A DNA stretch of 38,316 bases. Origin: Phycisphaerae bacterium (lineage in GTDB: Bacteria > Planctomycetota > Phycisphaerae > UBA1845). The notes under the pieces are model-generated. The model did no database searches, was not told where the DNA came from, and saw nothing but the letters and a program-made list of their open reading frames with translations. The position numbers were made by a program, and so were the translations under genes. The stretch is taken from the NCBI GenBank assembly GCA_016929015.1, contig JAFGJQ010000074.1:1-38316 (forward strand), written 5' to 3'. Positions 9,469 through 21,278 of the stretch are shown piece after piece. Position 1 is the stretch's first letter; every line of letters starts with the position of its first letter.

Positions 9469-10632
9469 ATGCCCAAGACTCCGAAGAAACCCAAAGCATC
9501 CGCATCAGCCGCCACGCCATCGCCTCGCCGTGCCAAGCGCGACGGGCAGGCCACGCAGGCCAGGCTTGCCAAGCTGGCCGACGCCGTTGTTGCCCTGGCG
9601 GAGAAGCAGAAGGACCCGTTTGTGGACATCCCCATTCGGGCCCTGAGCAACGTCAGCTTCAACGAGAAGACCCGCTACATCGAGATGGGCGACAAGACCC
9701 AGCGGCGGAATTTCTTCAACTACGGGCAGGCCAAGCGGTTCATGCAGACCGTGCTGGTTGCGTCCAAGTGCAAGCAACTGGTGGACGAGGACAAGACGGC
9801 CAGCATTCGTCAGATTTACTACCTGGCCAAGCACACCATCAAGGGCACCAACGAGAAGACGTTCGACGACCAGGACGAGTCCGACCCGGTCCTGGAGGAC
9901 CTGGAAGTGGCGCTGGACTCCCTGCGGGAAGAGCTGCACATCTTCGCGAGCAATCGCGGCAACCTGGTGGGCCCGATCACGCTGGTGGACTCCGGCAACG
10001 AACTGGACTGCACCCGTATGGGCTCGGCCGGCTACGCCGTGCCCAGCATCGTCGAGCCGGACATCATCCAGTTCAAAAAGTGCAAGGCGAAGTTCATCCT
10101 GCACGTCGAAAAAGACACGGTGTGGCGCCGCTTCTACGAGGACCGCTTCTGGGAGAAGCACAACTGCATCGTTTCGCACGGCTCCGGCCAGCCTACCCGC
10201 GGGATGCGCCGGCTGCTCCACCGCATGCACAACGAGCTGAAGCTGCCGGTCTACGCGCTGCTCGATTGCGACCCGTGGGGGTACTACATCTACTCCGTCA
10301 TCAAGCAGGGCTCGATCAACCTGGCCTATGAATCGCGGCGGATGGCCGTCCCCGAGGCGGTGTTCATCGGCGTTTCCGCGTTCGACTATGAGCGCTACGA
10401 TCTGAGCGACGACGTGAAGCTGGGCCTGGACAGCGCCGATGTGAAGCGCTGCAAGCAGATCCTGGCGTACCCGTGGTTCGCGGGCAAACGCCCCTGGGAG
10501 AAGGAAATCAAGAAGCTCGTCCGCAACGGCTTCAAGATGGAAGTCGAGGCCCTCTGCAACAAATCGCTCAGCTTTGTTACGGAAGAATACGTCCCGGCCA
10601 AGCTGAAGGACAGAAAGCAGTGGCTGGATTGA
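9469..10632 (+). CDS. top6A: DNA topoisomerase VI subunit A (Spo11-like)
   Basis: Catalytic-Tyr region SIRQIYYLAKHT, Toprim glutamate ILHVEKDTVWRRF, and LLDCDPWGYYIYSVIKQGS; immediately downstream of top6B. Confidence 0.95.
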   Translation: MPKTPKKPKASASAATPSPRRAKRDGQATQARLAKLADAVVALAEKQKDPFVDIPIRALSNVSFNEKTRYIEMGDKTQRRNFFNYGQAKRFMQTVLVASKCKQLVDEDKTASIRQIYYLAKHTIKGTNEKTFDDQDESDPVLEDLEVALDSLREELHIFASNRGNLVGPITLVDSGNELDCTRMGSAGYAVPSIVEPDIIQFKKCKAKFILHVEKDTVWRRFYEDRFWEKHNCIVSHGSGQPTRGMRRLLHRMHNELKLPVYALLDCDPWGYYIYSVIKQGSINLAYESRRMAVPEAVFIGVSAFDYERYDLSDDVKLGLDSADVKRCKQILAYPWFAGKRPWEKEIKKLVRNGFKMEVEALCNKSLSFVTEEYVPAKLKDRKQWLD

Positions 10633-11684: not shown

Positions 11685-13400
11685 TCACTTCGTGCCTTTG
11701 TGCCTCTGAGAAGCCCCCCCGCCAGGGGGTGCCTCCGTGCCTTCTTCCCACCCATACTTCGCCGCGATCGGCATTCGCCGGCCGGTGCCGAACGCGCGGG
11801 TGGTGACTTTCAGGCCCACCGCCGCCTGCTTGCGCTTGTACTCGTTTACGTCGACTTTGCGGATTACGTCTTTTACCACGGCCGGCTCGAAGCCGCGGGC
11901 GGCGATCTCATCCGCCGACAGCTCCTCCTCCACGTACAGCCGCAGGATGGCGTCCAGCAGGTCATAGGGCGGCAGGCTGTCCTGGTCGGTCTGGTTCGGC
12001 CGAAGCTCCGCGGAGGGCGGCTTGGTGATGCTGCTGTCCGGAATGATCTCGCGGCCGGCCTTGTGGTTGATGTAGCGGGCCAGATCGTACACCATCGTCT
12101 TGGGCACGTCGGAGATGACGGCCAATCCGCCGCACATGTCCCCGTAGAGTGTGCAGTAACCCACCGCCAGCTCGCTCTTGTTACCCGTGGTCAGCAGCAG
12201 CCAGCCGAACTTGTTGGACAGCGACATCAGCACGTTGCCCCGGACGCGGGCCTGGATGTTCTCCTCGGTTACGTCCGGTGCCCGGTCGCCAAAGTGCGGC
12301 CGAAGCTCCAACTCGACAGCCGCGTGCATCCGCTCGATGGGAATCACGCGGTGGTCCACGCCCAGGTTCCGGGCCAGGGTGGCCGCGTCGGACAGGCTGT
12401 GGTCGCTGCTGAACCGGGACGGCATGGCCACCGTGTGCACGCGGTCCGGCCCTAGGGCCGCCGCGGCGAGCACGGCCGTCACGGCGGAGTCGATCCCGCC
12501 GGACAGCCCGATCACCACCGCGGAGAATCCGCACTTGTTCACGTAATCGCGGGTGCCCATGACCAGGGCCTCGTACACGCCGGCGACGGGTTCCGGATAC
12601 GGGTGGATCAGCCCGGCCGGGCGGTTGTCCAGGTCCACGATCAGGAGGTCTTCTTCGAAGGCTTTGGCTTGGGCAACGAGGGAGCCGTCCGCGGCGAGCG
12701 CGGCACTCGCCCCGTCGAACAGCAGATCGTCGTTGCCGCCGACCTGGTTCACGTAGACGAGGGGGACGCCGTAACGGACGACTTGCCGCCCGAACAGGTG
12801 TACGCGCTTGGCCTGCTTGTCCACGTAGAAGGGTGAGGCGGACAGGTTCAGCAGCAGCTCGGCGCCCGCGTTGACCAGGGCACGGATGGGGTCGGCGTCG
12901 TAGAGGCGCCGGCCGTCGAGTTGTTCCTGGTTCCAGAGGTCTTCGCAGATGCTGACGCCGACGGGCACCTCTCGCCCGCCCGCGGGAATGCGGGCCACCG
13001 CCAGTTCCGGGCACGGCTGGAAGTACCGCGATTCGTCGAAAACGTCGTACGTCGGCAGCAGATGCTTGCCGTGGTTGGCCACAATCCGCCCTTCGCGGCA
13101 GACGGCCGCGGTGTTCCAGAGGGTCTTCCCTCTGGGCGTCTCGTTTGGCCGGGCGTAGCCGACCACGACGGTCGTGGTTCCGGTCTGCGCGGCAATTCGC
13201 TCCACCGCCGCGAGGTTGTCGCGGATGAAGGCTCTTTTCAGCAGCAGATCGCGGGGCGGATAGCCCAAAACGGCCAGTTCGGGGAAGACGACGAGTTCCG
13301 CGCCTTCCCGCTCTGCATCCCGCACAAACCGGAGGATCTTCCGGCTGTTTCCCTCGATGTCGCCCACCACCGGGTTGGTCTGGGCAAGGGCCACTTTCAT
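11685..13400 (-). CDS. nadE: Glutamine-dependent NAD+ synthetase (nitrilase-type amidase plus NAD synthase)
   Basis: MKVALAQTNPVVGDIEGN..., VVFPELAVLGYPPRDLL, VGVSICEDLWNQEQ, and synthase P-loop VIGLSGGIDSAVTAVLAAAALG, LLTTGNKSELAVGYCTLYGDMCGGLAVISDVPKTMVY, KPPSAELRPNQTDQDSLPPYD. Confidence 0.96.
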   Translation of the reverse strand: MKVALAQTNPVVGDIEGNSRKILRFVRDAEREGAELVVFPELAVLGYPPRDLLLKRAFIRDNLAAVERIAAQTGTTTVVVGYARPNETPRGKTLWNTAAVCREGRIVANHGKHLLPTYDVFDESRYFQPCPELAVARIPAGGREVPVGVSICEDLWNQEQLDGRRLYDADPIRALVNAGAELLLNLSASPFYVDKQAKRVHLFGRQVVRYGVPLVYVNQVGGNDDLLFDGASAALAADGSLVAQAKAFEEDLLIVDLDNRPAGLIHPYPEPVAGVYEALVMGTRDYVNKCGFSAVVIGLSGGIDSAVTAVLAAAALGPDRVHTVAMPSRFSSDHSLSDAATLARNLGVDHRVIPIERMHAAVELELRPHFGDRAPDVTEENIQARVRGNVLMSLSNKFGWLLLTTGNKSELAVGYCTLYGDMCGGLAVISDVPKTMVYDLARYINHKAGREIIPDSSITKPPSAELRPNQTDQDSLPPYDLLDAILRLYVEEELSADEIAARGFEPAVVKDVIRKVDVNEYKRKQAAVGLKVTTRAFGTGRRMPIAAKYGWEEGTEAPPGGGASQRHKGTK

Positions 13401-13516
13401 GGATTGCCATCCTGTGCTCGCGTTCACCGCGACGGGTAGATTCTACGCCCAATGGGCCGTGGGGGACACGGGAGGGGCGTCTGAGGCATGTGCGGCGGAG
13501 GTCGGCGCATAAGAAA

Positions 13517-13587
13517 GGCCAACGGCGTCCTTCCATTGTTCGGGCCGGAGAGGGGATTGCAGAGGAAGGACTTTGTTGCCGTTGGCC
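13517..13587. repeat. Long inverted repeat / hairpin (18 bp paired with a 6-nt bulge)
   Basis: GGCCAACGGC-GTCCTTCC (13517-13534) versus GGAAGGAC-tttgtt-GCCGTTGGCC (13564-13587). Confidence 0.75.
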
Positions 13588-13597
13588 CTGTCTTGGG

Positions 13598-13629
13598 ATC
13601 GTTAACGCCCCGGCACGGCCGGGAACGAT
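13598..13629. repeat. Hairpin
   Basis: ATCGTT-aacgc-CCCGGC-acg-GCCGGG-AACGAT: 12 bp paired with a 5-nt bulge. Confidence 0.6.
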
Positions 13630-13766
13630 ACTCTCAAGGTCTCCGTTAGCATCTTAGTCAGGCACGGGGGGAAAAGTCAGGTGAGAATCTTCCCCACGCG
13701 CGGTTTTCGTCGTGAGCGATCCGTGTCGTTTTCGGCCGCTCTTGCGTCGGGCCGTTTGGATGCGGC

Positions 13767-13812
13767 CCCGACCAGGGATGCCCATCCGACGCTCGGATCA
13801 GGGCAGGTCGGG
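13767..13812. repeat. Compound hairpin
   Basis: CCCGACC-agggat-GCCC-ATCCGA-cgc-TCGGAT-ca-GGGC-a-GGTCGGG: 17 bp paired. Its 5' arm also pairs upstream with GTCGGGCCG (13746-13754). Confidence 0.65.
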
Positions 13813-14026
13813 AACCCTCCGGCCGGCTCCACGTGTTGGTCGTAGCATTTTCCGTGCCTATGCCAACTACCTTCTCGGGCCGTTCGTTTGTGCCGTTTCT
13901 CGCGCGATATCTCTCTGCCGGGCGCCGCGCTCGCCTTTTGGCGCGTGTCTGGAATGAGGTATTTCTCGTAGCCGGATGCGAAATGTTCAGCGCGGCAGGT
14001 GTTGCGAGGGGGGGGGCGACAAAATG

Positions 14027-14058
14027 GGGGATCCGAGCTCGCCGTTACTCGGATCCCC
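14027..14058. repeat. Perfect 11-bp stem hairpin
   Basis: GGGGATCCGAG-ctcgccgtta-CTCGGATCCCC. Confidence 0.8.
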
Positions 14059-14063
14059 GTTTC

Positions 14064-14129
14064 AGGCTGTTCGCTCTTTCGAGCAAAGACCCACAGCCTC
14101 TGCGGCGATCATCGACGGCGGGGTGGGTC
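14064..14129 (+). other. Nested hairpin with potential pseudoknot or alternative helix in the leader of the downstream gene
   Basis: AGGCTGT (14064-14070)/ACAGCCT (14093-14099) enclosing GCTC-tttc-GAGC (14073-14084); GACCCAC (14088-14094) is complementary to GTGGGTC (14123-14129). Confidence 0.5.
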
Positions 14130-14171
14130 ACCTTTAGCTACCCATTGGTTCAGGTGTTACGGGCGGGGTCG

Positions 14172-16643
14172 ATGGTTGCGCGGCCTGTCCCCCGGGCGTG
14201 TTATCGGGCGTATCGAAAACCCGACGGGTTTGGGCTACTCTCTTCGGTCATCGTGGCACGCGTGTTGGAAACCATCGCGTTGTTTGTCCTTCTGGCCGTC
14301 GTCGGCCTGCGCCCGTTGATCGGCGAGACCTACGACTCGGCCGGTTCGCCCTTCACGTATCCGGGCGGGGGTCTGGCGGATCCCTCGCCGGTCCGAACGC
14401 TCGTGATCGACTGCGTGATTCTGGCGGCGGCCGGGCTCTGGTTGGCGGCCCGGGCCATCGGTCCGCGTGTCCGATACCGCCGAACGGGGCTGGAGTATGG
14501 GTTTATCGTGGTCGCGATTGCGGCGGCGGTGTCCTGCTTCTTCGCCGGCAACCAGCGATTGGCCGTCAACGCCTCCGTGGACTGGCTGGCCATGCCGGTT
14601 CTGGCCGTCACCCTGACGCAGCTTGTGCGCCGGCCCTGGCAGGTGCGCCTGACCCTTTGCGTGATTCTGGCGTCCGCGGCAGCGAATGCCGGGCAGTGCC
14701 TGTACCAGAAGCTCGTCAGTTTCGAAGAGACCAGCCGGGACTACTACGAACATCGTGTGGACATATGGGCCCATCAGGGCGTGGCGCTGGATTCGCCGCA
14801 GGTTGAGGCGTTTGAGCGACGGCTGGCCGCCCAAGAGGCATCGGGCTACACGTGGCACAGCAATGTGGCCGGGGCGTACCTGGTGCTGGCGGCCTTTGCG
14901 GGCCTGGGGCTGGCGGTCGGCAAGTGGTGTAACTCCGCGGCTTCGGCGGGGTATGGGACGCCCGCGAAGGCGGACACTCGAGTCGGCAAGCGGGGTCGAG
15001 CGGACACGGCGGGCGCCGTGGGCAGGGCTGCGGCGAAGCCGGCGGGGCCGCCCTTTCGGCAGATATTCGCTGTTGCCACGGGGTTGCTTGCCTTCGGCGT
15101 GCTGGCGGTCACCGTCACGACGGGAAGCCTGGGCGCGTTTTTGGCAATCGGGGCCGTGGCCGTGCTGGGTGCGGCCGTCGAGTTGCTGGGGCGCTGGATT
15201 CGTCGGCACCGTCGGCTTGCGTTCGGGTTGGGATGGTCTTGCGCAGTGGGGGCGGTGGCGGCCGTGGTAACGCACGGCGTGGTTCGGGGGTCGCTACCGG
15301 GCGCATCGCTGAGTTTTCGTTGGCAGTACTGGACGGCCAGCGTGCGGATGATTGCGGATCATCCTCTGACCGGGGTCGGCATGGAGAACTTCGGCCGGCA
15401 TTACGTGAGGTACAAGCCCATCGAGAGTCCGGAGGAGGTGAAGAACCCGCACAACTTCCTCGTTTCGGCCGCGGCAGATTGGGGGCTGCCCGGACTGGCC
15501 GGCGTTGTGTTGATGCTGGTCGGCGGGTCGTGGGTGTTGAGCCGGCCGACGCCGTACGATGCCCGTTCGCCCGGCTTTCCGGATGAGTCCGGTGGACCGA
15601 TGTCTCCCACCGGCCGCCCCTGGGTCTGGGGGCTTCTGCTGATTCTGGGCATCTTCGGTCCCCGCGTGTTTCTCCTGGAGAGCGATCTGTTCTACTATCG
15701 CGTCTGGTCCACAGTGTTTCCGCTGCTGTTCTGGGCATGCGCGTTCTCCGTGGCGGCGCTGGAAACGAACATCTTCACCCAGTTTCAGGACGAGCCGCTG
15801 CCGCGGCTGCCGCTGATGCTGAACTGCGGCCTGCTGGCGTTTCTGATTTCTGACCTGGTGAATTTTTCGCTTCTTGTGCCGTCCACACTCACCACGTTCT
15901 TCGCGTTGATGGGAGTGGCGGCGGCGGTGCGGGCGCCGGTGGAGCCGGCCGGCGTGTGCAAGCGCTCGGTTCGCTGGTTGCCGGCCGTGTTGTGTTTCGT
16001 GGGGTTGGTCTTGCTGGTGGGGTTCGTGGTTCGCCCGGTCGCGCGGGCGCGGGTCCATCTGGCGGATGCGCGACGGCAACTGCCCATGGATCCTGCGCTG
16101 GACCTGGCGCAGCAACCGACCTACCAGTCCTACGCGCAGGCCGCGGAGGCGGATGTGCTGGATCCGACGGCCCCGGCTGAGCTGGCTCGCTTCGCCATTG
16201 CCTATGCGGAAATGGCCGGCGGTCGTCGATCGGCCCTCACGGCGGCGGTTGCGCGGCTTGAATCGGCGTTGGATCGCGATCCGCTCTGGCTGCGGCTGTG
16301 GAGAGATCTGGTCCACGCCCGGACGGCCCTGGCGGAGGCTGCTGCGGACCCGGCCGCATACGTCCAGGCTGTGGCGGCCGCGCAACGGGTCGTCGAGTTG
16401 TACCCCACGTCGCCGGACGACTACGAGCGTCTCGGCGATGCTTATGCTTCCGTTCTCATTGAGCCGGAATCGCCGGTTCGCGACGCACGCGAGTGTGCCA
16501 TCGAGGCGTACGAACACGCCTTGGCACTTGATGACGCCCGCCCGGAGTGGGAGGTGGTTCAGCGCTTCAGCGTCCGCAAGCGAGAGGCCATTCAGGAGAA
16601 GGTGGACAAGCTGAGACAGGCGGCGAGTACGCGCCCGGATTGA
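14172..16643 (+). CDS. O-antigen ligase (Wzy_C)-like multi-pass membrane protein with C-terminal TPR-like region
   Basis: Multiple TM segments; ligase-type loop SLSFRWQYWTASVRMIADHPLTGVGMENFGRHYVRYK...NPHNFLVSAAADWGLPGLAGVVLML; helical repeat C-terminus. ATG 14172 is in frame with the ORF, and the first ~113 codons of the tracked ORF look non-coding. Confidence 0.8.
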   Translation: MVARPVPRACYRAYRKPDGFGLLSSVIVARVLETIALFVLLAVVGLRPLIGETYDSAGSPFTYPGGGLADPSPVRTLVIDCVILAAAGLWLAARAIGPRVRYRRTGLEYGFIVVAIAAAVSCFFAGNQRLAVNASVDWLAMPVLAVTLTQLVRRPWQVRLTLCVILASAAANAGQCLYQKLVSFEETSRDYYEHRVDIWAHQGVALDSPQVEAFERRLAAQEASGYTWHSNVAGAYLVLAAFAGLGLAVGKWCNSAASAGYGTPAKADTRVGKRGRADTAGAVGRAAAKPAGPPFRQIFAVATGLLAFGVLAVTVTTGSLGAFLAIGAVAVLGAAVELLGRWIRRHRRLAFGLGWSCAVGAVAAVVTHGVVRGSLPGASLSFRWQYWTASVRMIADHPLTGVGMENFGRHYVRYKPIESPEEVKNPHNFLVSAAADWGLPGLAGVVLMLVGGSWVLSRPTPYDARSPGFPDESGGPMSPTGRPWVWGLLLILGIFGPRVFLLESDLFYYRVWSTVFPLLFWACAFSVAALETNIFTQFQDEPLPRLPLMLNCGLLAFLISDLVNFSLLVPSTLTTFFALMGVAAAVRAPVEPAGVCKRSVRWLPAVLCFVGLVLLVGFVVRPVARARVHLADARRQLPMDPALDLAQQPTYQSYAQAAEADVLDPTAPAELARFAIAYAEMAGGRRSALTAAVARLESALDRDPLWLRLWRDLVHARTALAEAAADPAAYVQAVAAAQRVVELYPTSPDDYERLGDAYASVLIEPESPVRDARECAIEAYEHALALDDARPEWEVVQRFSVRKREAIQEKVDKLRQAASTRPD

Positions 16644-16655
16644 GGACAGGGGGAC

Positions 16656-16706
16656 GGGTGTACCGGCCTCATCGACTTGACGGGGGTGTACCTGCATGGG
16701 GTACAC
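16656..16706. promoter_or_regulatory. Putative operator: three GTGTACC motifs (two direct, one inverted)
   Basis: GGGTGTACC at 16656-16664 and 16684-16692; GGTACAC at 16700-16706, forming the dyad GTGTACC-tgcatgg-GGTACAC (16686-16706), about 50 bp upstream of the ATG at 16755. Confidence 0.4.
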
Positions 16707-16754
16707 TTTGTCGCTGCGGGCCTGTTGACTCGAAACGACGGACGGACATCCACC

Positions 16755-18221
16755 ATGCCTACGTTCTTCGGACGCCGGTATATGAGACCGCCGGCGCGGG
16801 TCTCCGCGCGTGAGAAAGGGATCGGCGGGCTCGTTCTGCTCGTCGCGGCGGCCATCGTGGTGGCGTGCGGGGTTGTGACGATCCGCGAGAGCACGCCGCT
16901 CTTTGAGATTGCCCCCGGCAACGAGAAAGTCTCTCCCAACCGTGAGCTTCTCGTCGCGCAGCGGATGATGCCCGCGCTGGGGACGGCCGGCTGGTCGGAC
17001 GCGCGGGCGATCCAGGTGGACCCCTCCGACGTGCCGGATGCCCCGCCGGCGGCCCGGGACGTGGATCGCGTGTTCACCGGCCGCTACGAGAACCTTGCGG
17101 ACGTGGCGCAACAGGTGCGGGTGACCATCTACGACGCCGGCACTCCGGAGAATGCACTCGGGCTGTTTACCGAATCGCGGCCGGCGGAGTCGGAGTCGTT
17201 GGCCGTCGGGTGCGGCGGCTGGCGCACGCAGACCGGCGGGGGGTTCTGGGCAGGCCGGTACTGCACCCGATTCGATCGCTCCACGGTGACGGAAACAGAC
17301 CCGACGATTCAGACCATCGCGGACGCATTGGCGGGCGTGCAGTTGCGCTACGGTCCTGCGCCCGCCGAGCCTTCATTGACGGAGGCAAAGGAAGACTCGT
17401 TGCTGCCGGCGATCGATCTGGCCGGGTGGGGCGAGGCGATGGGGCTCCGCGTTTACACGCCGGAAGACCTGTGGGAGAAGATCGATGGCCGGGCGGACCT
17501 GTACCTGGCCTTCCACATGGTGCGCATGGTGTTCGGCACGTACAGCGACAGCCGCGATCCGGGAAACTACATCGACGTGTACTGGTACGACATGGGCACG
17601 CCGGACAATGCCTTCGGCATCTATCGTGCGGAGATGAGCAGCGAACCGCGGTCCGTCGACGTCGGGCGCGAAGGATATGCGACGCCGGGCGGCGTGTTTT
17701 TCTGGAAGGGCGGGAGTTACGTGCGGGTGGAAGCGTCGGACGGCTCGCAGGAGCTGGCCGATGTGGCGCTGGCCGCTGCGCGTGCCGTGGCTCAGGTGGT
17801 GCCGGATGCCGACCGTCGGCTTTGGGCGGACGACCTGCTTCCGGAGGAAAATCGGGTTGCCGGCAGCTTCGGCTACGAGGCGACGGACGCTTTCAGCCTG
17901 GGTTTTCTGGACGACGTTTTCCGTGCGGAGTACCAGGCGGGCGATGCCACGTACACGACGTTCGTTCATCGGGCGAAGGATGAGGTTGCGGCCCGGGCGA
18001 CGTTCGACGCCTACGCGGCGTTTTTCCAGGAGCACGGCCAGTTGTTCAAACGCCAGACGCGAGAAGGATTCGACCTGGTCGTGGGGGAAGTCGGGGGAGT
18101 CGTGGACGCCGTGGTCGTGGTGAAGAACTACCTGGGCGGCGTCAGCGGGACGGGCGACGCGGCCTTGGCCGAGGAGAAGGTGGTAGCGTTTGCGCAGACG
18201 TTGGTGTCCGAGGCGAACTGA
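16755..18221 (+). CDS. DUF6599-like membrane-anchored protein
   Basis: N-terminal TM (GLVLLVAAAIVVACGVVTI), repeated motif DLYLAFHMVRMVFGTY...YIDVYWYDMGTPDNAFGIYRAEMS, and VTIYDAGTPENALGLFTESRP; position directly upstream of DUF362 supports the call. Confidence 0.6.
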   Translation: MPTFFGRRYMRPPARVSAREKGIGGLVLLVAAAIVVACGVVTIRESTPLFEIAPGNEKVSPNRELLVAQRMMPALGTAGWSDARAIQVDPSDVPDAPPAARDVDRVFTGRYENLADVAQQVRVTIYDAGTPENALGLFTESRPAESESLAVGCGGWRTQTGGGFWAGRYCTRFDRSTVTETDPTIQTIADALAGVQLRYGPAPAEPSLTEAKEDSLLPAIDLAGWGEAMGLRVYTPEDLWEKIDGRADLYLAFHMVRMVFGTYSDSRDPGNYIDVYWYDMGTPDNAFGIYRAEMSSEPRSVDVGREGYATPGGVFFWKGGSYVRVEASDGSQELADVALAAARAVAQVVPDADRRLWADDLLPEENRVAGSFGYEATDAFSLGFLDDVFRAEYQAGDATYTTFVHRAKDEVAARATFDAYAAFFQEHGQLFKRQTREGFDLVVGEVGGVVDAVVVVKNYLGGVSGTGDAALAEEKVVAFAQTLVSEAN

Positions 18222-18246
18222 GCGCGGACCGAAGAGGAAGTGCCCG

Positions 18247-19389
18247 ATGGCGGAATCGCAGCCAACCGAAACCGGCCTGTCCCGCCGCGAGTTTCTGCGT
18301 CGCGGGGGCGCCACTTTGATCGCCGCCGGTGCGGCCACGGGCGGGGCGCTTTGGCTGTATGACCCCACCGGCAAGGCGGGGCTCCGCCAGCCGTCGCCGC
18401 AGCGATTGCCGAATTACTTCGCGAGCGTGGACTATCCCGTGTCCGCGCCGCGGATCAGCATCGCCCGGGGAGGCGCCCTCGATCCGCAGACCGTCGAGAA
18501 GATGGTGCGGTCGGCCGTTGGCGGCCTGAATGGGGGTCCGGGATTGTCGCGCTTCATCCGCAAGGGCGACGTGGTGCTTCTCAAGCCGAACGTCGGGTTT
18601 GAGCGGGCGCCGCAGTTTGCCGCCACGACCAACCCGGATGTGGTGCGCGCGGTCATCCGCCTCTGCCGCGAGGCGGGCGCGTCGGAAGTGCTGGTGGCGG
18701 ACAACCCCATCGAGGCGGCGCCCAACTGTTTTGCGCGGTCGGGGATCCAGGACGCGGCGCAGCGTGGGGGGGCCAGGGTGCTGATCCCGGCAAACGTCTA
18801 CTTCACGCCGCTGGCCATTCGCGAGCCGAATCCGGACGGCACGCCGCACCAGCCGGACCCGGCGCAGCATGAGGCGCTCGGCACCTGGCCTGTGTTCTGG
18901 GAGCCGTTGCGAGAGGCGAACAAGGTCATCGGCATCCCGGTCATCAAGGACCACAGTCTCTGCTACGCGTCAATGGGGTTGAAGAACTGGTACGGGCTGT
19001 TGGGCGGCCGGCGGAACCAGTTTCATCAGGCCATCCACGACATCATCAGCGACCTGGGCCTCATGCTGAGCCCCACCCTCACGATCGTGGACGGCACGAG
19101 GGTCATGATGAGAAACGGCCCCACCGGCGGCAGCCTCTCGGATGTTCGGGACGGCAACACCATCGTGGCGAGTGTGGACCCGCTCGCCTGCGATGCGTGG
19201 TGCTACGAGAACCTGCTGGAGCGTGACCCGGCTGCCCTGCGCTACCTGGACCTGGCCCAGGAGAAGTTCGGCGCGCAGGAGGCCGGCCCGCGGAGCTACG
19301 CGGAGGCCGGGCGATTCGGCACACGACACTGGACGGATTACAGGAATCGCGGGCTGATCGTGGAAACCGTTGTACGGAGCGGCGCATGA
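18247..19389 (+). CDS. DUF362 domain protein with Tat signal
   Basis: TGLSRREFLRRGGATLIAAGAATGGALW (twin-Arg); DVVLLKPNVGFERAPQFAATTNPDVVRAVIRLCREAGASEVLVADNP; IPVIKDHSLCYASMGLKNWYGLLGGRRNQFHQAIHD. Confidence 0.88.
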   Translation: MAESQPTETGLSRREFLRRGGATLIAAGAATGGALWLYDPTGKAGLRQPSPQRLPNYFASVDYPVSAPRISIARGGALDPQTVEKMVRSAVGGLNGGPGLSRFIRKGDVVLLKPNVGFERAPQFAATTNPDVVRAVIRLCREAGASEVLVADNPIEAAPNCFARSGIQDAAQRGGARVLIPANVYFTPLAIREPNPDGTPHQPDPAQHEALGTWPVFWEPLREANKVIGIPVIKDHSLCYASMGLKNWYGLLGGRRNQFHQAIHDIISDLGLMLSPTLTIVDGTRVMMRNGPTGGSLSDVRDGNTIVASVDPLACDAWCYENLLERDPAALRYLDLAQEKFGAQEAGPRSYAEAGRFGTRHWTDYRNRGLIVETVVRSGA

Positions 19390-21278
19390 GAATCACGACC
19401 GTACGCATCCTCGTTCAGACCGTGATGTTCAGCCTTTTCCTGGCGTTCGTGCTGCTGACCACGTTTTCGCACCTGAACGACTGGCCGTCGGCGAAGTGGG
19501 TGGTCAGCAAGTTTCTGGAGGTGGACCCGCTGGTGGGGATTGCCACCGCGATCACAACGCACACGGTCTATCGCGGCCTGCTCTGGGGCCTGGTGATTCT
19601 GATCCCCACGTTGTTCTTGGGCCGGTTCTTCTGCGGCTGGATCTGCCCGTTCGGCATCCTTCACCATCTCGTCGGCTGGGTGTTCAACCGGCGGAACGCA
19701 AAGGAGAAGATTGAGTCGAACCGCTACCGGCCGCTGTTCGCCCTGAAGTACTCCATCCTGATCGGCTTTCTGGCGGCGGCTGCGTTCGGCTGCCTGCAGA
19801 TCGGCCTGCTGGATCCGATCGTGTTTCTCTACCGGGCGTTCACCACCAACGTGCTGCCCGTCGCGAACATGCCTGCCCAGAGCGCGTTCGGCGACTACCA
19901 CGTGCATGCCTACGCCTGGGTGCTGGGGTTCCTGTTCCTCTTCTTCGTGAGCATGAATCTGGTCATCCCGCGGTTTTTCTGTCGGGTGATCTGCCCGCTG
20001 GGGGCGTTGCTGGGCGTGCTGAGTCGCTATGCGTTCTGGCGAATCGAGCGCGACCCCGACAAATGCGTGAACTGCGACCTGTGCCTCCACTCGTGCGAAG
20101 GGGCGTCGGATCCGCACAAGCAGTTGCGGATGTCGGAGTGTTTCGTCTGCTTCAACTGCATTGAGGACTGCCCGCACGAGGCCCTGCGTTTCGCCTTTCT
20201 GCCGTCACGCCGGCGCGAGATTCGGAGCCCGGACATCGGCCGCCGCCATGCCGTCTTTGCCGCCCTGGTCGGCGGGCTTTTCTTCGGCTGGACCAAGGCC
20301 GGCGGCAAGAGTACACGCGATTTCTCCAGCAAAGTCATTAGGCCACCCGGCTCGGTGGAGGAGCAGGAGTTTCTTGCACGCTGCATCAAATGCGACCAGT
20401 GCATTCGCGTGTGTCCGACCAACGTGCTCCAGCCGGCGTCGTTCGAGGCCGGCGTGGAGGGGCTCTGGACGCCGATCCTGAACTTCCGCATGGGGGCGTG
20501 CCAGCACCAGTGTACCGCCTGCGGACACGTGTGCCCGACCGGGGCGATCCAGCGGATCACGGTCGAGGAGAAACTGGGATTGGCTGAGTTCGAGGCGGTC
20601 GGCCCCATCCGGCTGGGCACAGCCCATTTTGATGTCGGCCGCTGCCTGCCGTGGAGCAAGAACATCCCCTGCGTGGTGTGCGAGGAGGTCTGCCCGGTCT
20701 CGCCGAAGGCGATCCACTGCGAATACAGACAAATGCTGGTCCGCGACGGCAAGAAGCTCGTGCGGGCGGCGACGGCCACCGCCCTGACCCTGATTGACTC
20801 TCCGGCCCCGGGCCAGGCCGTTGGGGCGCCGTGTACTTTCCGCCCCGGCGAGTTCAAGGGAGATGCAAGCCTCTCGTACCACGTGCAGGTGTACACGGGG
20901 GGCGGGTTCGTTCGGACTTTTCCCATCGCGGACAACGACGCCGACACGCTGGTTGTTGACGGCGTGATGGACCCCGTGCCGCCGGCCGGTGCGGTCGCCG
21001 CCATACACGTGCAACTGAAGGTCCCGAAGATAGACACGGAGTACTGCATCGGCTGCGGGCTGTGCGAGTTGGAGTGTCCCGTTGTGGGAGATCGTCGGGC
21101 GGTCTACGTGACGGCCGAAGGAGAAACCCGCTCGACGAACTACTCGGAGCGGGACCGCAACCGGTCTCTGCGGCTGACGCGGACGGCCGATGCCGGGCGG
21201 ACCGGCCGGGTCATCGGAGAAGAATTCCGAAAGCCGGATTCGGGCGAAGTGCCCGATTGGACGAGTTTGTTGAGTTAA
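19386..21278 (+). CDS. NapH/MauN-like membrane 4Fe-4S polyferredoxin
   Basis: CGWICPFGILHHL and CRVICPLGALLG motifs between TM helices; soluble motifs CVNCDLCLHSC, CFVCFNCIEDCP, CIKCDQCIRVCP, CQHQCTACGHVCP, CVVCEEVCP, CIGCGLCELECP. Overlaps the DUF362 stop by 4 nt. Confidence 0.9.
   Translation: MRITTVRILVQTVMFSLFLAFVLLTTFSHLNDWPSAKWVVSKFLEVDPLVGIATAITTHTVYRGLLWGLVILIPTLFLGRFFCGWICPFGILHHLVGWVFNRRNAKEKIESNRYRPLFALKYSILIGFLAAAAFGCLQIGLLDPIVFLYRAFTTNVLPVANMPAQSAFGDYHVHAYAWVLGFLFLFFVSMNLVIPRFFCRVICPLGALLGVLSRYAFWRIERDPDKCVNCDLCLHSCEGASDPHKQLRMSECFVCFNCIEDCPHEALRFAFLPSRRREIRSPDIGRRHAVFAALVGGLFFGWTKAGGKSTRDFSSKVIRPPGSVEEQEFLARCIKCDQCIRVCPTNVLQPASFEAGVEGLWTPILNFRMGACQHQCTACGHVCPTGAIQRITVEEKLGLAEFEAVGPIRLGTAHFDVGRCLPWSKNIPCVVCEEVCPVSPKAIHCEYRQMLVRDGKKLVRAATATALTLIDSPAPGQAVGAPCTFRPGEFKGDASLSYHVQVYTGGGFVRTFPIADNDADTLVVDGVMDPVPPAGAVAAIHVQLKVPKIDTEYCIGCGLCELECPVVGDRRAVYVTAEGETRSTNYSERDRNRSLRLTRTADAGRTGRVIGEEFRKPDSGEVPDWTSLLS

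Follow-up and report, generated by a model that had tools for sequence, protein, structure and literature searches.

Two conserved small RNA candidates between nadE and an O-antigen-ligase-like gene of a Phycisphaerae bacterium, one of them linked to a sigma28-type promoter

The window, a stretch of 38,316 nt of Phycisphaerae DNA, contains a hairpin-dense region of 732 nt between nadE and an O-antigen-ligase-like (Wzy_C) gene, and the question was what this region encodes. The first-pass annotation had suggested either a long leader in front of the polysaccharide-polymerisation gene or an unannotated ncRNA. The results described below are probably best explained by two stand-alone sRNA genes on the minus strand, judged from sequence comparison: RNA A, which would be sigma28-dependent and act in trans, and RNA B, a second sRNA. 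The features are listed in Table 1.

Table 1. Positions of genes, RNA candidates and promoter elements in the window.
Feature	Position	Strand	Basis or remarks
nadE	11685..13400	minus	Pfam NAD_synthase and CN_hydrolase; RNA B lies 98 nt upstream on the same strand
RNA B, hairpin with large conserved C-rich apical loop	13515..13590	minus	match of model R2, covariation
Conserved loop of RNA B, CCCCUCUCCGGCCCGAACA	13537..13555	minus	invariant or nearly invariant alignment columns
Small hairpin	13600..13627	minus	folds; immediately 5' of RNA B; sequence not conserved among relatives
RNA A, proposed sigma28-dependent sRNA	14020..14100	minus	covariance models, covariation; 5' end inferred from promoter spacing
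RNA A, terminator hairpin	14027..14058	minus	loop CGGCGAGC invariant; T-run at 14024-14021 follows
RNA A, hairpin 1	14064..14099	minus	AGGCUGU / ACAGCCU with conserved asymmetric GGGUCU bulge; fold and alignment
RNA A promoter, -10-like element GTCGATG (consensus GNCGATA)	14110..14116	minus	in relatives, CGAT varies little or not at all
RNA A promoter, -35-like element CTAAAG	14132..14137	minus	T[A/C]AAG in nearly all 75 homologous loci
O-antigen-ligase-like (Wzy_C) gene	14172..16643	plus	Pfam PF04932; divergent from RNA A

The flanking genes are divergent, as had been annotated. The start of nadE (MKVALAQTNPVVGD) defines one border, and the Wzy_C gene starts at about 14172-14205. An open reading frame of 936 aa (13833-16643) was rejected as a protein-coding account of the region: its homologues align only from residues ~123-147, i.e., from near position 14200, and thus the stretch upstream of the Wzy_C start is non-coding, as the codon statistics there also indicate. 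All five inverted repeats described before were recovered (13517-13587, 13598-13629, 13767-13812, 14027-14058 and 14064-14099), among them the long bulged stem and the perfect stem of 11 bp (GGGGATCCGAG/CTCGGATCCCC). A repeat search of the region with a minimum of 12 bases listed none of them, the exact arms being probably too short. The 732 nt were more stably folded than 20 dinucleotide-shuffled versions on both strands (z -3.1 for the plus and z -5.4 for the minus strand). The minus strand of 14019-14100 and of 13515-13590 had z scores of -5.4 and -5.3, respectively, and in both cases 0/200 shuffles were as stable. A tRNA/tmRNA search found none. No Rfam 15 family reached its gathering score, neither in the window nor in 12 homologous loci, and weaker matches to mir-1538, pRNA, IhtA and NrsZ were discarded as chance.

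Comparison of the stretch with 100 relatives by blastn revealed two recurrent islands only, 14021-14100 (island A) and 13515-13591 (island B), without conservation between them. Three of the five stems are thereby conserved, 13517-13587 in RNA B and 14027-14058 and 14064-14099 in RNA A. For the stems 13598-13629 and 13767-13812 no counterpart was found in the 100 relatives. The hairpin near 13767-13812 (in segment 13740-13815) is strong and apparently lineage-specific, and the small hairpin next to RNA B may here belong to the transcript of RNA B. What had been described as a single region consists of two independent RNA families, which in relatives are on other contigs or megabases apart, and a compound region of A plus B was rejected because the two are unlinked there.

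Both islands carry the signature of conserved RNA structure. For RNA A, 98.6% of the pair cells were standard pairs, compared to 85.1% in shuffles (70 distinct sequences), with double changes at 20/24 pairs; the terminator hairpin had compensatory changes at 11/12 pairs. For RNA B, 94.7% were paired, compared to 73.7% after shuffling, with double changes at 19/21 pairs (69 sequences). The real pairing level was attained by 0/500 shuffles for either RNA, and sliding of the pairing partners lowered it to 30-52%. The RNA A alignment had been fitted to the model and therefore leans towards the structure, but a first structure-free alignment gave the same pairs; a structure-free alignment was also made for RNA B. 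The T-runs 3' of the hairpins occur on the minus strand only, and in the minus-strand reading G.U pairs are far more numerous than A.C mismatches, and thus both RNAs were assigned to the minus strand. The earlier suggestion of a structured RNA or unannotated ncRNA was substantiated, in the form of two conserved families with compensatory changes, neither of which is in Rfam 15.

RNA B was matched by covariance model R2 at 13498-13597 (minus strand, E 6e-16). It is a long hairpin (GGCCAACGGC / GCCGUUGGCC, an internal loop on the left side, CCUUCC / GGAAGG) with an apical loop of 25-30 nt, in which the C-rich CCUCUCCGGCCCGAAC is invariant. Many copies have a T-rich tail, which is weak in the copy of the window (TTTCTT). 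RNA B was detected in 60/100 relatives with one to three, mostly 1-2, copies per genome, and outside the order in none of 294 genomes sampled from the phylum. Tandem arrangements of two or three copies, ~150-230 nt apart, were seen at three loci (L360, G019:C239; L339, G015:C5; L335, G024:C1).

The gene content around RNA B bears on the alternative that it is a cis-acting leader of nadE, either riboswitch-like or a terminator-type attenuator, and no separate sRNA. In at least three families, 22 loci in all, nadE was found near RNA B, always downstream, co-directional and 34-577 nt away, at one of them (L335) behind tandem copies, and the large conserved apical loop is reminiscent of ligand-binding RNAs. 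The NAD+-I (nadA) and NAD+-II (pnuC) riboswitches are likewise located upstream of NAD-synthesis genes. In contrast to them, RNA B did not match any Rfam 15 family, has another conserved sequence, and has many copies away from NAD genes. Where another gene was called downstream (40 loci), it was on the same strand 23 times and on the opposite strand 17 times, which is near chance, and the genes were unrelated to NAD (e.g., hemerythrin, a cystathionine-synthase-like enzyme and NtrC, named by eye from sequence). RNA B is thus not consistently upstream of the genes of one pathway. In addition, a search for -24/-12 sites of the sigma54 type (TGGCAC-N5-TTGC) revealed such a site at most 170 nt upstream of 35/70 RNA B copies, compared to 4/63, 2/62 and 0/60 control stretches (6/185). 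At about a dozen loci the site ends 7-18 nt before the hairpin, and the transcript would be hardly longer than the hairpin itself, which argues against a leader. The window's own copy has no sigma54 site within 170 nt upstream. A housekeeping sigma70 promoter was also considered and rejected, as there was no clear enrichment (17% of the loci with p<=0.05, median p 0.5). A leader function of RNA B is therefore regarded as unlikely, although it keeps some weight.

RNA B is most likely a separate sRNA that was ancestrally located in front of nadE, because elsewhere it is accompanied by unrelated genes in mixed orientation and sigma54-type sites are present upstream of half of the copies. It lies just upstream of nadE in the window, and in relatives it would often be driven by a sigma54-type promoter. 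The long hairpin would display the C-rich, anti-Shine-Dalgarno-like loop, through which the RNA may act. Anti-Shine-Dalgarno sRNAs with C-rich loops include the Rsa RNAs of Staphylococcus and the alphaproteobacterial cuckoo RNAs. RNA B is similar to these in its exposed CCUCUCC-type loop and in its tandem copies in some genomes, but it has another fold and belongs to another phylum, and its function is predicted from the loop.

RNA A was matched by covariance model R1 at 14019-14144 (minus strand, E 5e-35) and by model R3 at 14019-14103. It has a length of ~80 nt and is composed of two hairpins, the second of which is an intrinsic terminator. The stems had been described as not being obvious terminators of a neighbouring annotated gene, which needs correction for 14027-14058, the terminator of RNA A itself. 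The homologues share the minus-strand layout CTAAAG-N17-CGATA-N8-GAGGCUGUGGGUCUCCGCUC-N4-GAGCGGACAGCCUGGCUUGGAGGAUCCGAGUAACGGCGAGCUCGGAUCCUCUUUUUUU. With blastn, island A was found in dozens of genomes (72-92% identity); a Wzy_C gene was sometimes nearby, but often not. The covariance model detected RNA A in 81/100 relatives, nearly always as one copy per genome; in the genome of the window, both RNA A and RNA B are present once. A broader model revealed 10 confident genomes outside the order: one in another family of the class (G156) and the others elsewhere in the phylum (seven genomes of family f79, and families f88 and f106, all with high-scoring matches). In f79 the sequence of the terminator stem is wholly replaced, but GGCUGUGGGUCUC, the promoter and the loop are kept. 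Weak R3 matches in three further genomes (G170, G360, G388) were plain terminators and were excluded from the count. All strong matches among named contigs were from Planctomycetota. At one locus (L400, G003:C103) hairpin 1 is changed and GUGGGUCU is lost.

Upstream of RNA A, T[A/C]AAG-N17/18-CGATA was found at a fixed distance at nearly all 75 loci, including the carriers outside the order; a few copies have poor -35 elements (L089, L092, L105). The spacer between the boxes is free of gaps but has little sequence conservation, and this is the mark of a promoter. The E. coli sigma28 (FliA) consensus is TAAA-N15-GCCGATAA, which TAAAG-N17-CGATA resembles. Most of the flagellin genes tested lacked the motif upstream, and the motif was therefore tested by a pattern search of whole genomes and not with the flagellins as proof. 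CTMAAG-N17-CGATA had 47 matches in ten genomes, compared to 17 for a reversed control pattern. The genes following intergenic matches were read by sequence, and ten were scanned with Pfam, which identified FlgM, FliM, FliN (twice) and the prepilin-type N_methyl domain among them; overall, eight pilin-like genes, four genes for ExeA-like AAA proteins, fliM, fliN (two) and flgM were found. By its sequence-based annotation, this gene set is a motility/pilus regulon. Prepilin-type genes with a sigma28-type promoter were observed at eight loci (L296, L299, L300, L302, L313, L318, L320, L421). This suggests that pilus-like and flagellar genes may be co-regulated from a common sigma28-type promoter in this order.

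The distribution of FliA itself was also analyzed. FliA exceeded the cut-off in 94/100 relatives, flagellins were present in 97/100, and FliA was found in 10/10 of the confident distant RNA A carriers. Of the 392 genomes sampled from the phylum, however, 339 had FliA, and thus its co-occurrence with RNA A discriminates little. One genome (G003, 98% complete) had no FliA or flagellin matches and kept RNA A with a perfect TCAAG-N17-CGATA; here, another sigma factor may read the promoter, FliA may have been lost recently, or the assembly may have a gap. Many genomes of the order encode a second FliA/WhiG-like sigma factor (~182 bits) beside the canonical FliA (G000:C530:21051-21719 and equivalents).

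The genes next to RNA A were highly variable: at 50 loci they grouped into 64 clusters, among them PilZ, carA and APS kinase, and every orientation was seen. RNA A is thus tied to no single downstream gene, and this variability argues for a stand-alone gene. In line with an intergenic sRNA gene, the promoter motif, the hairpins and the T-run are present at fixed spacing at nearly all 75 loci. RNA A would be transcribed from the sigma28 (FliA)-type promoter CTAAAG-N17-CGATG with a start at ~14100, and would end at its own terminator at ~14020. We infer that it is made by the FliA-containing RNA polymerase along with late flagellar and pilus genes. It would act in trans, most likely by pairing with other RNAs via the terminator loop CGGCGAGC, the strand GUGGGUCUCC of hairpin 1, or both; the candidate segments for pairing with targets are CGGCGAGC and GGGUCUCC.

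RNA A could also be transcribed with sigma28 and bind a protein instead of pairing with mRNAs, for instance as a sponge for CsrA or some other RNA-binding protein. Its invariant parts, two short loops or bulges, are fixed in place by covarying stems, and a duplex-energy screen of the RNA A loop and bulge against the starts of flagellin genes and of genes with the sigma28 motif gave no pairing signal, both of which would fit such a role. A GGA near the base of the terminator in many copies and the report that csrA is under the control of sigma54 in a planctomycete (PMC12316311) also point in this direction. The GGA is, however, not located in a loop, and some of the distant copies have lost it (e.g., TTTGGGAAAGC), and thus a CsrA sponge is unlikely, and the choice of any other protein would be speculation. 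Taken together, protein binding as the mode of action of RNA A is considered doubtful.

Two further explanations concern the hairpins as such. A nature as dispersed DNA repeats (REP, MITE or attC-like) without an RNA role would fit the occurrence of RNA B in tandem or in two to three copies in some genomes, but RNA A is essentially single-copy and RNA B has mostly 1-2 copies, the stems vary in sequence around constant loops, and the elements are flanked by promoters and terminators; this explanation is very improbable, and RNA B in particular was rejected as an attC-like or REP element based on its low copy number, promoters and covariation. The long plus-strand leader of the O-antigen-ligase-like gene that had been proposed is hardly tenable, since, although the stems are immediately upstream of the Wzy_C gene and RNA A is near such a gene in several relatives too, T-runs, G.U asymmetry and promoter place both RNAs on the opposite strand, and in most relatives RNA A is beside other, unrelated genes. 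By its position, the Wzy_C gene is also no target of RNA A.

Small RNAs under the control of the flagellar sigma factor, as proposed for RNA A, have been described in other phyla. In E. coli, UhpU, MotR, FliX and FlgO are sigma28-dependent; they derive from UTRs, bind Hfq, and their conservation is restricted to some Enterobacteriaceae (PMC10578931). RNA A, in contrast, is encoded by a gene of its own and also occurs in Planctomycetota well beyond its order, and no sequence relation was recognised. Campylobacter jejuni has the FliA-dependent FlmR (CJnc170) and the RpoN-dependent FlmE (CJnc230), which is processed from the flgE mRNA (PMC11187230); CjNC1 and CjNC4 belong to the context of sigma28-dependent sRNAs in the same species (PMC4626219). 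One sigma54- and one sigma28-dependent sRNA in the flagellar hierarchy are a parallel to RNA B and RNA A, but no homology was shown, RNA B is unlinked to flgE, and the sigma dependence is here derived from motifs only. In the literature searched, no description of a conserved regulatory sRNA of Planctomycetota was found. The Rhodopirellula-1 motif, a candidate structured RNA partly from Planctomycetes, is listed as cis-regulatory and as also proteobacterial (PMC2864571), and differs from RNA A and RNA B in this listed description.

On the comparative evidence, RNA A and RNA B are two new RNA families, RNA A with a strong link to the sigma28 motility regulon. As a tentative extension, the two might together control surface and swimming motility of this order post-transcriptionally, in two layers. 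By analogy to FlmE and FlmR, RNA B would then act early, from sigma54 promoters, and RNA A late, from sigma28, a separately evolved arrangement that we put forward as speculation. It would include, equally tentatively, an RNA A that is conserved far deeper than the sigma28-dependent sRNAs described so far. The known examples of the latter are narrowly distributed, and RNA A is near single-copy, deeply conserved and easily recognised. It provides a clear hypothesis of FliA-dependent expression in a phylum of unusual cell biology and makes post-transcriptional control of motility in Planctomycetota directly testable. Both covariance models can be used to annotate many genomes at once.

Two observations were made elsewhere in the window. 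A run of genes downstream of the Wzy_C gene (16677-21278) encodes DUF6599, DUF362 and multi-4Fe-4S proteins. Positions 9469-10632 encode a topoisomerase VI subunit A / Spo11-like protein with a TOP6A Toprim domain, which is uncommon in bacteria.
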